Shown here piece after piece: positions 3,031 to 18,172 of a stretch of DNA of 36,870 nucleotides. A program made the translations under genes and the position numbers. This stretch comes from a virus. The stretch spans positions 1 through 36,870 of the IMG/VR virus record IMGVR_UViG_3300042562_000515; one strand, 5' to 3'. Position 1 is the stretch's first letter. Every line of letters begins with the position of its first letter. The notes beneath the pieces were generated by a model that searched no databases, was not told the DNA's origin, and worked only from the letters and a program-made list of their open reading frames with translations.

Positions 3031-4185
3031 TTAATTCGTTGAAATCTGATAAGGTTCTCCATTTCGCTTTATTACAAGCGATGGGTTAAGTTTAAGCATT
3101 CGATTGACAATTACTTGGCAATACTTAGTGTCCAGTTCCATACCATAGCATTTGCGTTTAAGTTGGTGGGAAGCTACCATTGTACTTCCAGAACCTAAAA
3201 ATAAATCTAAAATTAAATTAGTTTCATTAGTTGTATCTAAAACTGCCTTTTGTATTAAATCTATCGGCTTCATTGTGGGGTGTTCTTTGGGTGGCACTCT
3301 ATCAAATTCCCAAATATCTTGACCTCTACCATTTTTTAATTCTATTCTGCCCTTATGTGCAAATAGTATAATTTCATATTGACCTGCATAAGCACCTTTA
3401 AGGTCTCCCATTGACCAATTATTTTTCTTCCAAATAATTATATTTTTAAGTTCAAAGGCATTTTTTTTAACTTCTTCTATCCATTCAGTTATTGTTTGCC
3501 AACCACAAAAAATAAAAAGACCAATATTTTCTTTTGTATATAAAAAAACATTAGACATAAAATCTAATATTTTATCATCATTAAGAAGCTCTTTATGTTT
3601 ACTTTGGTAATTACTTTCATAACAATATCCGTAAGGCGGGTCTGTAAATACCATATCCGCTTTTTGTCCGTTCATTAGCTTTGCCACTTGGTCGCTATCC
3701 GTACTATCCCCACAAAGCAATCTATGCTCACCAATCTCAAACAAATCACCTAATACAATATCGGTTTCAATTCCATTTTCTGGAACTTCAAAATCATCTT
3801 CTTCTGCTTCTAAAACGGCAGCTTCATAATTTGGAACATCTAAACCCCATTTGTCAAGATCTTCTGCATCCCATTCGTTAGCGAGCATCTCCCAATCCCA
3901 TTCTCCAAATCCTACGTTGTCTTTAACGATAAATTCCTTTTGCTGCTCTTCTGACCAATTAACGATTTCAACTGATACATCTTTCCATCCTGCTTCTTTC
4001 ATCGCCTTCAGCCTCATATTACCACCCAAAACTACCATATCTTCATTGCAGACTATTGGTCTGACCTGCGCCATTTCTGGAAAGTCTTTAAGGCTTTGAA
4101 CTAACTTTTTGAACTTATCATCCTTAATTATTCTAGGATTTGATGGATTCGATTTAACAGTTGAAATCTTGGTTAATTGTATCAT
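3031..4185 (-). CDS. ParB-like domain fused to an N6-adenine/N4-cytosine DNA methyltransferase
   Basis: A 384-residue fusion. Residues 1-100 resemble the ParB/sulfiredoxin N-terminal fold found in phage methyltransferases (SNPR near residues 14-17, GGNMRLKA at 54-61). The methyltransferase follows: catalytic motif TDPPYG at 181-186 and the SAM-binding motif LDLFLGSGST at 326-335. Catalytic motif before SAM motif is the beta-class order, usual for N6-adenine or N4-cytosine enzymes. The product probably marks phage DNA against host restriction; no partner nuclease is adjacent, so an orphan enzyme is inferred. Bases 3190-3650, coding for most of the catalytic domain, are clearly more AT-rich than the rest, which suggests the domain was exchanged. 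Confidence 0.9.
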   Translation of the reverse strand: MIQLTKISTVKSNPSNPRIIKDDKFKKLVQSLKDFPEMAQVRPIVCNEDMVVLGGNMRLKAMKEAGWKDVSVEIVNWSEEQQKEFIVKDNVGFGEWDWEMLANEWDAEDLDKWGLDVPNYEAAVLEAEEDDFEVPENGIETDIVLGDLFEIGEHRLLCGDSTDSDQVAKLMNGQKADMVFTDPPYGYCYESNYQSKHKELLNDDKILDFMSNVFLYTKENIGLFIFCGWQTITEWIEEVKKNAFELKNIIIWKKNNWSMGDLKGAYAGQYEIILFAHKGRIELKNGRGQDIWEFDRVPPKEHPTMKPIDLIQKAVLDTTNETNLILDLFLGSGSTMVASHQLKRKCYGMELDTKYCQVIVNRMLKLNPSLVIKRNGEPYQISTN

Positions 4186-6188: not shown

Positions 6189-6362
6189 TTATGCAATGCG
6201 ATTTGTAAGGTAAAACAAAGTTGATTGAGCAACTATTAGATCAGCAGACCTACTTACTTTGGTTGAATAGTATTTGGCTTTTAAAACCTTATACTCGGCT
6301 TGGTTCACCTTTCTATGATAGTATTCAATCAGTTCGTGAATTGTCATTTCTGGCTTTGTCAT
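6189..6362 (-). CDS. Small helical protein
   Basis: A 57-residue predicted all-helical, basic protein (MTKPEMTIHELIEYYHRKVN at the start). The ATG at 6362 overlaps the stop of the replication gene as ATGA, the same coupling used elsewhere in this operon; the longer frame to 6491 would overlap that gene by 133 bases and is rejected. The repeated Tyr/Lys/Arg pattern could bind nucleic acid, but no family is recognised. Confidence 0.6.
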   Translation of the reverse strand: MTKPEMTIHELIEYYHRKVNQAEYKVLKAKYYSTKVSRSADLIVAQSTLFYLTNRIA

Positions 6363-7183
6363 TTTTTCTCGGTTAAACTTTTCGTATAAATTTGAATTAA
6401 TTGCTTTTTGTCGGCCTTTTGAAGGAAATTCAGCAGCAGTTCCTTTTTGCTGGCTTCTACGGCTTTCTTGAAAATCGGATTTTCTCGCCACATTGAAGTA
6501 TTCATCTGGTTATAGTCTGGCAAGGCATCCAGATAATCCTTGAACTGGTAGGCTTGCTTTCGCTTGACTTGATCTCGCAGGATTTCCATCGGCATACCCT
6601 CAATAAATTTTTTAAGGTACTTAAAAAGCATTTGTAGCTTTTCTTCATTAGATGCGTTGTAAGCGTTTATTTTTTCCAGTTTGGTATAATATACATCTAT
6701 GGCAGTATCGTGCTTCTGTGGGTCGTTTATGAAGTCCGTAAAGGCATCAATCATTATAAGATGCTTGTCGGCATCTGCCATTACTGGAATTTGATTTGTT
6801 GGTAGGTAGGGCATTGTAGATTTTTCTGAGTGATTTAAACGAAATTCTTTGTACCAGCCGAATATATTGGCTGCGGATAGGACTGTTAGCTGGTTTTCTA
6901 GTTTGATTTCTCCGAAGGCTGCCATATTAATCGCTAGGCAAATATCATCAACAAAGGCTGCTGGATAGACTGAAAGTATTTTTGTGATGACTTCCTTGGC
7001 CGTGATTGTGATGCCTTGTCCAGAAACGGATAGGCCCATAATAATCGCAGCTTTGAAAATTGATTCTGCGAGTTTGGCTTCTACGGAATTTCGGTTCTGC
7101 GATAAATCAAAATTTAATCGACCGGGTTTCTCTAAGGCTGGATTTCTTTCCAGACTTGAATTAATTACTATTAGTTGGTTCAT
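6359..7183 (-). CDS. Putative replication protein, possible helicase loader
   Basis: A 274-residue mostly helical, soluble protein without a Walker motif. It follows the DUF6291-like gene with a 23-base overlap, the position taken by helicase-loader or DnaD-like proteins in other small phages. The central part (about 40-125) reads as a helical globular domain and the C-terminus is basic (ELLLNFLQKADKKQLIQIYTKSL). I do not recognise the family, so the loader role is an inference from neighbourhood and from the absence of any helicase or polymerase gene. Confidence 0.6.
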   Translation of the reverse strand: MNQLIVINSSLERNPALEKPGRLNFDLSQNRNSVEAKLAESIFKAAIIMGLSVSGQGITITAKEVITKILSVYPAAFVDDICLAINMAAFGEIKLENQLTVLSAANIFGWYKEFRLNHSEKSTMPYLPTNQIPVMADADKHLIMIDAFTDFINDPQKHDTAIDVYYTKLEKINAYNASNEEKLQMLFKYLKKFIEGMPMEILRDQVKRKQAYQFKDYLDALPDYNQMNTSMWRENPIFKKAVEASKKELLLNFLQKADKKQLIQIYTKSLTEKK

Positions 7184-7862
7184 TTTTTTGAGAGTGAATT
7201 AAGTTCATTGCGATTTCGTATTCATTTTTTATTGAATCCATTTTATCAATTTTTGGATGATTAAAACCATTTGATTGAAAGCTGCCTTTAGGTCTTTCGT
7301 TTTTCTTCCACGTTCTGAGCCTTCCTTGGAGATTCCAAGTCTTTTCAAGTTCATACCTCATTTTTTTACCAGTTTGGTTTTCTTCACTCCAGTAATGGTA
7401 GAAGTCTAACAATAAATTTTTATCATATTCTGACAAATAATTTTTGATAGTGTCAGCAAACGATAGTTTGCGTTGTTCTATATCAACCTTAGGATTAACA
7501 TTTTTATTTTCATTTTCCATTATACATAATGCATCTACCCTTATACATTCTTCTTCTACATCTACATTATACATTGCCTTACCGTTTGCTTCTGGTTTGC
7601 TTATTTCTTGCTTATCGTTTGCTTCTGGTTTGTTAGTTGATTGCTTGGTCTTAGGTTTATTTCCATTCTCATATTTTCGAATATTGGCATCAATGTTCGG
7701 TTTAATTAAAGTGAAAATTGCTCTGGAAACACCTTGTAAATCAGTTTCTTTAAAATTCATACCGTATTCAAAAACGGCATTCCAAACCTCTGCTTGAGTA
7801 GGTTTATCTAGGTCTTTTATCGCATCAAAAAAAGACCTATAAATTATCATTGAATCTCTCAT
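7161..7862 (-). CDS. DUF6291-like replication initiation protein
   Basis: A 233-residue protein. The N-terminus (MIIYRSFFDAIKDLDKPTQA, followed by FEYGMNF and a segment AIFTLIKPNIDAN at about 50-60) matches the DUF6291 layout common in phage and plasmid replication-initiation-like proteins of Bacteroidetes. A low-complexity KPEAN-rich linker occupies about residues 66-95, then a C-terminal helical domain (about 120-215) resembles DnaD/O-protein C-termini. The start is the ATG at 7862, 11 bases after the U-tract of a predicted terminator/structured RNA, so expression may depend on read-through. A second ATG at 7850 would also leave the domain intact. Confidence 0.7.
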   Translation of the reverse strand: MRDSMIIYRSFFDAIKDLDKPTQAEVWNAVFEYGMNFKETDLQGVSRAIFTLIKPNIDANIRKYENGNKPKTKQSTNKPEANDKQEISKPEANGKAMYNVDVEEECIRVDALCIMENENKNVNPKVDIEQRKLSFADTIKNYLSEYDKNLLLDFYHYWSEENQTGKKMRYELEKTWNLQGRLRTWKKNERPKGSFQSNGFNHPKIDKMDSIKNEYEIAMNLIHSQKNEPTNSN

Positions 7863-7872
7863 ATCTGGGTAA

Positions 7873-8003
7873 TAAAAAAACCTTATCCGACTTTCATTGG
7901 TGAACCCAGCCCAGCAGCTGCCAATTACTCATCGAATAAGGTCTTTAAATGTCTTTTTTTGCTGGAATAACTACCGTGTGGGTTCAATCACATTGTTCGG
8001 TAA
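7873..8003 (-). ncRNA. Candidate structured leader or small RNA with pseudoknot and terminator
   Basis: Read on the minus strand. Hairpin 1: UACCG (8002-7998) and UGUG (7992-7989) pair with CGGUA (7976-7972) and CACA (7980-7977), with a 5-base bulge and an 8-base loop. Hairpin 2: an 11-bp outer stem (7942-7932 with 7890-7880), an inner stem (7925-7921 with 7900-7896) and a 4-bp cap (7920-7917 with 7910-7907). The only imperfect pair of the outer stem is G-U on this strand but C-A on the other. The hairpin 1 loop UGAACC (7986-7981) complements the 6-base bulge GGUUCA (7906-7901) of hairpin 2. A T-run follows (7879-7874). No known class is recognised. Confidence 0.5.
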
Positions 8004-8009
8004 CGGCTG

Positions 8010-8040
8010 CAAATATAAATCTATTTTTGTAATAGAAAAA
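8010..8040 (-). promoter_or_regulatory. Probable promoter for the structured leader and replication operon
   Basis: TATATTTG (8017-8010, minus strand) is a perfect Bacteroidetes -7 box. The expected -33 position (8040-8037) is TTTT rather than TTTG. Initiation about 7 bases downstream would place the RNA 5' end near 8003, at the base of hairpin 1. The promoter lies across the end of the 8021-8452 gene. Confidence 0.45.
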
Positions 8041-8452
8041 TTAATACTCCAAAAAATCCAAAAGAAATAAAAGCAAGCGCACCAGCTACGGTCTTCCAGA
8101 CTGAAATATCTCTTTCCATTTCTTCCATTTTCAAATGATCATCCACAGCCATCAATTCCAGACCATCGGCATAGCTTCGGCCCTTTTCGATGGCTTTTCC
8201 AACCTCAACCGAAATCCGAGTATTTAACTCATCTCTTTCGGCTCGGTAGTAATCTCTGGACTTACGCATCGCATCCAACTTATTGCGCAGGGCTGATGTC
8301 TTATTAAGTTCTCTAGTCCAGTTCTCTGGGATCCAGACCGATGGTTTACTAGTTGTTTCCAGTTGGATAAAGTTAGTTTCTGGATTTGTCTTAATTACCT
8401 TCCAGAAGTCGCCAGCTATCTGGTAGCCATCCTGCTTTTGCTCGTTAATCAT
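8021..8452 (-). CDS. Coiled-coil protein with a C-terminal membrane anchor
   Basis: A 143-residue protein. The N-terminal part (IAGDFWKVIKTNPETNFIQL) reads as a small domain; residues about 55-120 are heptad-like and charged (LRNKLDAMRKSRDYYRAERD), and the last 25 residues form one hydrophobic span (VAGALAFISFGFFGVLIFLL), so a tail-anchored membrane protein is predicted. Start ATG at 8452 is preferred over the extension to 8500, which would run through a possible promoter. Function unknown; replication-complex tethering or superinfection exclusion are guesses. Confidence 0.65.
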   Translation of the reverse strand: MINEQKQDGYQIAGDFWKVIKTNPETNFIQLETTSKPSVWIPENWTRELNKTSALRNKLDAMRKSRDYYRAERDELNTRISVEVGKAIEKGRSYADGLELMAVDDHLKMEEMERDISVWKTVAGALAFISFGFFGVLIFLLQK

Positions 8453-18141: not shown

Positions 18142-18172
18142 TTTGCAGTTAAAATAAAAGCTATTATATTTG
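18142..18172 (+). promoter_or_regulatory. Strong Bacteroidetes-type early promoter (copy 2)
   Basis: TTTG (18142-18145), a 19-base spacer and TATATTTG (18165-18172). The -33 flank TTTTGCAGTTAAAATAAA is identical to the promoter at 9403, and the A-rich leader also shares the start CATCAAACAAxAACAAAAAA. It drives the nucleotide-metabolism cassette. Confidence 0.75.

Follow-up and report, generated by a model that had tools for sequence, protein, structure and literature searches.

A leader RNA with two predicted pseudoknots and a terminator-type hairpin ahead of genes in Bacteroidota phages

Structured leader RNAs which bear a terminator are known as a kind, and several RNAs of phages and bacteria invite comparison with the element described here. 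The put RNAs of the HK022 type are composed of two adjacent hairpins about one nucleotide apart, the P4 CI RNA and the P1/P7 C4 antisense RNA depend on short complementary leader segments which control premature termination of a replication/immunity operon, and the pistol ribozyme is characterized by a hairpin loop engaged in a 6-bp pseudoknot and by an A-rich linker. The put RNA of HK022 is an antitermination element (PMC9378689), the HMP-PP (thiS) riboswitch has its aptamer embedded in a terminator stem (PMC6478431), and at the IsrK locus of the Gifsy-1 prophage a single promoter yields both a small RNA that ends at a terminator and an mRNA made by read-through (PMC4825925). The timing of gene expression in Bacteroidota phages, in which the present element occurs, is little known.

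The element lies in an IMG/VR virus record of 36.9 kb, the whole of which was analysed and is called the window; it is a minus-strand leader RNA (8003-7874) about 130 nt long. It consists of hairpin 1 (P1), a 29-nt linker, a terminator-type hairpin (hairpin 2, composed of P2, P3 and P4) and a tract of seven U residues (U7); the loop of hairpin 1 is predicted to pair with a bulge of hairpin 2 (PK1) and the apical loop of hairpin 2 with the linker (PK2) (Table 1). The stable hairpin with G-C foot pairs (P2-P3-P4) followed by U7 has the sequence features of an intrinsic terminator and is predicted to be one, and the start codon at 7862 comes 11 nt past U7 on the minus strand. In addition, the covarying fold, the conserved unpaired nucleotides before a gene and the terminator as a putative expression platform are, as judged from sequence, the structural features of a riboswitch. 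Rfam 15 gave no match for the whole window, chance-level matches far below the gathering threshold at 7700-8150 when E values up to 10 were allowed, and only a tRNA elsewhere at eight loci with other members, in agreement with a preliminary description of this DNA, which had recognised no known class.

Like the HMP-PP riboswitch, the leader is a compact structured element within the stem of an intrinsic terminator ahead of a gene. Unlike it, the leader is made of two hairpins tied by two pseudoknots and is followed by unrelated phage genes, and it falls outside that class, having no Rfam match and a downstream gene that encodes a DUF6291 protein and is not thiamin-related. Like put, which acts in cis on RNA polymerase, it is a phage RNA just after an early promoter; however, HK022 put suppresses pausing and termination further on, whereas the second hairpin of the leader is itself of terminator type, kissing loops are conserved in the leader family, unlike in put, and in the window and its closest homologues (type 1) hairpin 1 and P2 lie 28-29 nt apart, so the spacing of the put hairpins is not found. 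IsrK would resemble the leader as a phage locus with a single promoter for a terminated RNA and read-through, the sequence relation having been checked via Rfam only. In contrast to P4 CI and P1 C4, the pairing partners of the leader lie within one compact fold and the family also serves homing endonucleases, and the Rfam model of the C4 antisense RNA gave no match. The pistol ribozyme (PMC4604425) shares with the leader the hairpin loop in a 6-bp pseudoknot and the A-rich linker, but the PK1 strand of the leader follows its apical hairpin on the 3' side, and the leader has a second pseudoknot; nothing like a cleavage core was recognised in it, and Rfam gave no match. A hammerhead was also considered and rejected, as the core-like GAUGAG...GAAA of the window is not conserved in homologues, and a conserved short ORF over the terminator, as in leader-peptide attenuators, was not found. 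The family, its double-pseudoknot architecture and its use in a phage promoter-leader cassette appear to be new; no description of the element was found in the part of the literature that was covered.

Table 1. Positions in the window of the leader RNA, its parts and the first genes behind it
Feature	Position	Strand	Basis or remark
-7 promoter box TATATTTG, Bacteroidota type	8010..8017	-	sequence; published consensus (PMC6847099); predicted +1 near 8005
Hairpin 1	7971..8003	-	fold; P1a and P1b covary
P1a	8003-7998/7976-7971	-	inside hairpin 1
P1b	7992-7989/7980-7977	-	inside hairpin 1
5' bulge AACAA of hairpin 1	7997-7993	-	
Loop L1 of hairpin 1	7988-7981	-	
PK1 strand a, UGAACC in loop L1	7981..7986	-	pairs with 7906-7901
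PK1 strand b, bulge GGUUCA	7901..7906	-	pairs with 7986-7981; covariation
A-rich linker, 29 nt	7942..7970	-	
Linker motif AAGACAUU, A-rich	7955-7948	-	resembles family-wide AAAACAUU
PK2 strand a, CCAGCA in linker	7960..7965	-	complementary to L4 7916-7911
PK2 strand b, UGCUGG in apical loop L4	7911..7916	-	complementary to 7965-7960
Hairpin 2 (P2-P3-P4, 20 bp), terminator-type	7881..7941	-	fold and homologues
P2	7941-7931/7891-7881	-	hairpin 2
P3	7925-7921/7900-7896	-	hairpin 2
P4	7920-7917/7910-7907	-	hairpin 2
Internal loop GAGUA/GAAA of hairpin 2	7930-7926/7895-7892	-	
U7 tract, completes intrinsic-terminator-like signal	7880..7874	-	sequence; U run behind hairpin 2 in all homologues
233-aa DUF6291 protein, replication-initiator type, first gene past leader	7161..7862	-	Pfam PF19808
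274-aa conserved protein, same operon	6359..7183	-	73-89% identical in closest relatives

The minus-strand RNA folds with -37.3 kcal/mol (z = -3.1), which was equalled by none of 200 shuffled sequences, whereas a plus-strand RNA is ruled out by its fold (z = -0.26). The preliminary description had inferred a minus-strand RNA from a G-U pair in the long stem, rightly, as this U-G pair is U-A in the homologue L009; it had counted one non-canonical pair in an 11-bp stem, which becomes two G-U pairs when the stem is written CCUUAUUCGAU/GUCGGAUAAGG, its register probably starting one pair lower and holding one G-U. All the positions it gave for the -7 box, hairpin 1, the loop, the bulge, the U tract, 11 nt ahead of the ATG, and the ATG itself match the minus-strand sequence, the 6-bp loop-bulge pairing (PK1) is confirmed, and the complementarity does reach 8 bp as UGAACCCA/UGGGUUCA. 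PK2, the internal loop NAGUA/GAAA and the constancy of the linker, which is always 28-29 nt long, were recognised only in the present analysis. The nucleotides of PK1 and PK2 are left unpaired by the secondary structure, save an occasional closing base; therefore both pseudoknots are compatible with the complete fold and would be tertiary clamps, not mutually exclusive stems. A DNA search found a single copy of the leader region within the window, and the gene after it encodes the DUF6291 protein; in type III toxin-antitoxin systems (ToxI-like) the antitoxin RNA is tandemly repeated ahead of the toxin gene.

The first relatives (L002, L006 and L009) were retrieved via neighbouring proteins or the stem pattern, independently of the pairings tested, and their hairpin 1 keeps its shape while the letters are changed. 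When these were aligned with the window, 97.2% of the cells were paired, against 28-42% in controls with slid partners, and 14 of the 36 pairs were changed on both sides, including two pseudoknot pairs. A covariance model of the four sequences matches L141, L154, L157 and L160 at E = 2.5e-13 to 3e-10, contigs that came from an unrelated 5'-end pattern and thus independently of the model, and also L045 (E = 0.002). An alignment of nine distinct type-1 sequences, window included, was then made by hand, each sequence being checked letter by letter with its source; 288 of 294 cells are paired and compensatory change is seen at 26 of the 36 pairs. In PK1 such changes affect four of the six pairs, and positions 3-6 show two or three different Watson-Crick pairs apiece. 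The preliminary description had staked its interpretation beforehand on compensatory changes in related phages, and all six helices, PK1 included, covary.

The second pseudoknot is likewise found throughout type 1: in all nine sequences the apical loop is complementary, over 5-6 bp, to the 5' part of the linker, with the loop/linker pairs UGCUGG/CCAGCA (window), GUUCGG/CCGAAC, GUAUGG/CCAUAC and UGCUAG/CUAGCA, and, in further homologues, UCCUU/AAGGA (twice), UAGGU/ACCUA, GUUCC/GGAAC and UUAAU/AUUAA. When the loops were reassigned among eight sequences, one of two near-identical ones being omitted, none of 20,000 permutations was as good. Linker length (28-29 nt) and the sum of P2, P3 and P4 (20-21 bp) are kept in nine of nine sequences and the NAGUA/GAAA internal loop in eight of nine; to judge by its letters, this loop resembles a bulged-G (sarcin-ricin or loop-E) motif. 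A plain inverted repeat or chance pairing is ruled out by the covariation, the PK2 permutations, and the shuffle and matching-mode controls given below.

Beyond type 1, looser kissing-loop relatives occur in the same setting in Flavobacterium phages (11b, hattifnatt9-1, snusmum6-1, elemoA and elemoC), Cellulophaga phages (phi13:2 and phi19:3), the group of contigs L043-L048 and Olleya phage Harreka_1, whose element was identified by visual inspection of the printed sequence. Phage 11b has an 8-bp loop-loop pairing (CGGGCAGG/CCUGCCCG), retains AGUA/GAAA and is matched by the covariance model at E = 0.08, and between closely related members the kissing strands differ by compensatory changes, as in GGGTCACAG/CTGTGACCC versus GGGTCGCAG/CTGCGACCC. 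These relatives were found with a descriptor composed of [TANNTTTG], a hairpin with a loop complementary to the interior of the next terminator hairpin, and a U run. In 1.06 Mb of phage sequence, both strands, 19 elements with the -7 box, kissing hairpins, a U tract and an ATG within 25 nt were found against a shuffle expectation of 0.11, a count for which the -7 box was part of the descriptor, some contigs had been chosen because one copy was already known in them and a small number of the hits are near-duplicates. Reverse, complement and same-sense matching in place of complementarity gave 0, 1 and 0 elements, respectively. The looser types share with the window type the layout, the kissing and an A-rich linker motif near AAAACAUU, a consensus reached by none of 2000 shuffles in a test that is optimistic because the consensus was picked after inspection; not all of them, however, have PK2 and the NAGUA/GAAA loop. 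It is likely, though unproven, that all types share one ancestor. The scan of VRR-NUC neighbours covered 80 of 175 relatives, and the survey of the family is incomplete. Searches of GTDB genome contigs for host or prophage copies, with the RNA pattern and with the 274-aa protein, were both empty, a DNA-level search of phage records with the window region gave two chance-level matches only, and the L141 leader had no match in phages and plasmids.

The leader is preceded by a promoter box. The -7 consensus of Flavobacterium johnsoniae is TAHHTTTG with G at -5, and the -33 motif is weak in Flavobacterium promoters (PMC6847099). The TATATTTG box noted in the preliminary description fits this consensus, which puts the predicted start two nucleotides ahead of hairpin 1, in keeping with the start proposed at the base of that hairpin; a -33 TTTG at the usual spacing ahead of the window box is not evident. 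The same box stands upstream of L002, L006, L009, L045 and phage 11b, five relatives retrieved without the box as a search term, and in the first three of these the RNA lies at the same place. Other TATATTTG boxes of the window occur only at 18165 (+) and 5336 (-), and the descriptor found no kissing-hairpin leader behind either. In L043-L048 and L140-L162 a common 5'-terminal mini-hairpin, GCC-GAAA-GGC, comes directly after TATATTTG and ahead of hairpin 1, and the kissing hairpins behind it differ greatly.

The genes behind the leader on the same strand of the window encode the DUF6291 protein, homologues of which are annotated "replication protein" in the elemo phages and Harreka_1, the 274-aa protein, a TET-associated glycosyltransferase, a ParB-methyltransferase and a terminase. 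The ParB-domain N6/N4 methyltransferase (3031-4185) and the TET-associated glycosyltransferase (PF20691, 5128-5952) of this minus-strand operon hint at hypermodified phage DNA. Other family members precede unrelated genes, which encode DUF6291 proteins, NUMOD4/HNH endonucleases, a helicase, a winged-helix protein and a DUF1376-like protein or are ORFs of 65-79 aa (several cases), and despite these differing genes the U tract is directly ahead of the ORF in nearly all members. The earlier view of the leader as a gate on a replication/modification operon suits the gene order of the window but does not cover the whole family, since other members stand before unrelated genes, those of homing endonucleases among them. 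NUMOD4/HNH homing endonuclease genes were seen with their own promoter-leader copy before the start codon in L125, L126, L132, L133 and L166, that of L166 being the NUMOD4 gene at 7947.

Near-identical leaders stand ahead of different genes (L141 versus L160, and the HNH leaders L125 versus L126), and some phages have two or three leader copies ahead of different genes. Moreover, the RNAs of the window and L009 are of one type and those of L002 and L006 of another, whereas the proteins pair the window with L002 and L006 with L009; this discordance between RNA alleles and flanking genes (window 7874-8003, L002, L006 and L009) suggests that the leader has been swapped among phages by recombination. 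From these three observations, the promoter-leader unit behaves as a portable cassette.

The interpretation in the preliminary description is thus supported, and where it had left an attenuator and a discrete small RNA side by side, the close ATG found in almost every member speaks for a leader that acts in cis. Our main reading, to which a probability of about 60% is given, is that the leaders are a new cis-acting family in which a terminator held by a tertiary clamp is read through conditionally, so that expression of the next gene is gated. Transcription would start from the -7 box immediately before hairpin 1, and hairpin 1, the linker and the long hairpin, which doubles as an intrinsic terminator, would fold co-transcriptionally and be clamped by the loop-bulge pairing PK1 and the linker-apical-loop pairing PK2. 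The polymerase would then either halt at the U tract, freeing a compact RNA, or continue into the gene a few nucleotides on, and the clamp would be the sensor, like an aptamer embedded in a terminator, for which the HMP-PP riboswitch is a precedent (PMC6478431), or like an antitermination site to which a protein binds. The stretch from the U tract to the ATG is too short to contain a promoter, so the gene would be reached by read-through, from the leader promoter or from upstream, and the putative terminator must be leaky or regulated; since two strongly selected pseudoknots on a terminator are poorly explained by constant leakiness, gated read-through is favoured. While the 3' arm of P2 has yet to emerge, a nested hairpin made of PK1 and PK2 is already possible, so that the clamp could slow the formation of the terminator or else prepare it in advance. 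A two-state antiterminator was considered and rejected: no alternative fold competes with the emerged P2, whose opening costs 12-20 kcal/mol in the secondary-structure model (about 12 in the window), so a classical two-state switch is not evident. As the downstream genes vary, they suggest no metabolite or product as the signal. A wider proposal is more tentative and has rather less than an even chance of being right, namely that the portable promoter-leader cassette is a new class of phage regulatory RNA, in which the terminator-embedded double-pseudoknot core would sense a cellular or phage signal and so release replication genes and homing endonucleases across Bacteroidota phages; the signal may be a small ligand, a phage-encoded protein or the state of the polymerase.

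Other readings of the same locus are less probable. The promoter, compact fold and terminator are exactly as in an sRNA gene, all loops are internally satisfied, and IsrK is a prophage precedent for a terminated sRNA and a read-through mRNA from one locus (PMC4825925), so that a discrete trans-acting phage sRNA, with constant leaky read-through and a clamp that merely stabilises the RNA, has to be weighed. It is unlikely, because the ATG spacing is short in nearly all members though the genes are unrelated, which a purely trans-acting RNA explains poorly; besides, some phages have two or more copies ahead of different genes, and among the exposed nucleotides no conserved seed was found, the motif in the linker being only A-rich. 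An equally doubtful alternative is that the leader is a structured 5' UTR whose role is to protect the end of the mRNA or to tune translation; transcription would then not stop at the U-rich stretch, which would be an unstructured landing site for the ribosome. In the window group hairpin 1 does begin at about the predicted 5' end, mRNAs of Flavobacterium have no Shine-Dalgarno sequence and tend to be unstructured from -20 to +20 (PMC6847099), and the window stem ends at -19; however, the stem ends 6-12 nt ahead of the ATG in several members, within that very region, and a stem followed by U5-U7 is a textbook intrinsic terminator.

RNA immunity or copy control in the manner of P4 CI or P1 C4 RNA, with a released leader that pairs with nascent leaders in trans and kissing sequences that define specificity groups, would suit the variation of the kissing sequences by lineage and the swapping of RNA types relative to flanking genes, but it is most improbable, as both partners lie within one molecule and pair in a manner compatible with the complete fold, so that cis pairing explains the covariation; leaders ahead of homing endonucleases do not fit it either, nor does the C4 family match in Rfam. 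As little credence is given to leader-peptide attenuation, in which translation of a short linker ORF through hairpin 2 would open the terminator. Such attenuation has been reported for amino-acid operons of Flavobacterium psychrophilum (PMC9723704), and an ATG ORF of the linker enters hairpin 2 in L045, L141, L154, L157, L160, phi13:2, L126 and L133 (the last two being HNH leaders), its stop overlapping the next start codon in L045, L141, L154 and phi13:2 (L113). The linkers of the window, L006 and L009, however, have no ATG, GTG or TTG start, that of L002 has TTG only and that of 11b no ATG, and the structure is conserved even where the ORF is not; attenuation by a peptide is therefore unlikely for the window, whose linker has no start codon.

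Regulated read-through of a clamped terminator thus being the preferred reading, the leader, which often precedes a replication gene in many Bacteroidota viruses, looks from its sequence like an expression gate. The family is a structured RNA absent from Rfam 15 that recurs, in phages both cultured and uncultured, at the position between a promoter and a gene, the support for its fold is about as strong as sequence can give, and the covariance model and a simple descriptor are now usable to find further members. Furthermore, what triggers the control, in which direction it works and what the kissing loops do can be tested directly in the cultured phages 11b, hattifnatt9-1, snusmum6-1, Harreka_1 and phi13:2. 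The family also indicates that a gene start is misplaced in public records: the annotated start of the helicase genes of hattifnatt9-1 (gp034) and snusmum6-1 (gp033), at 3990, falls inside the leader RNA (3907-4007; L166 and L167), and the true ATG is likely the one in frame near 4026.
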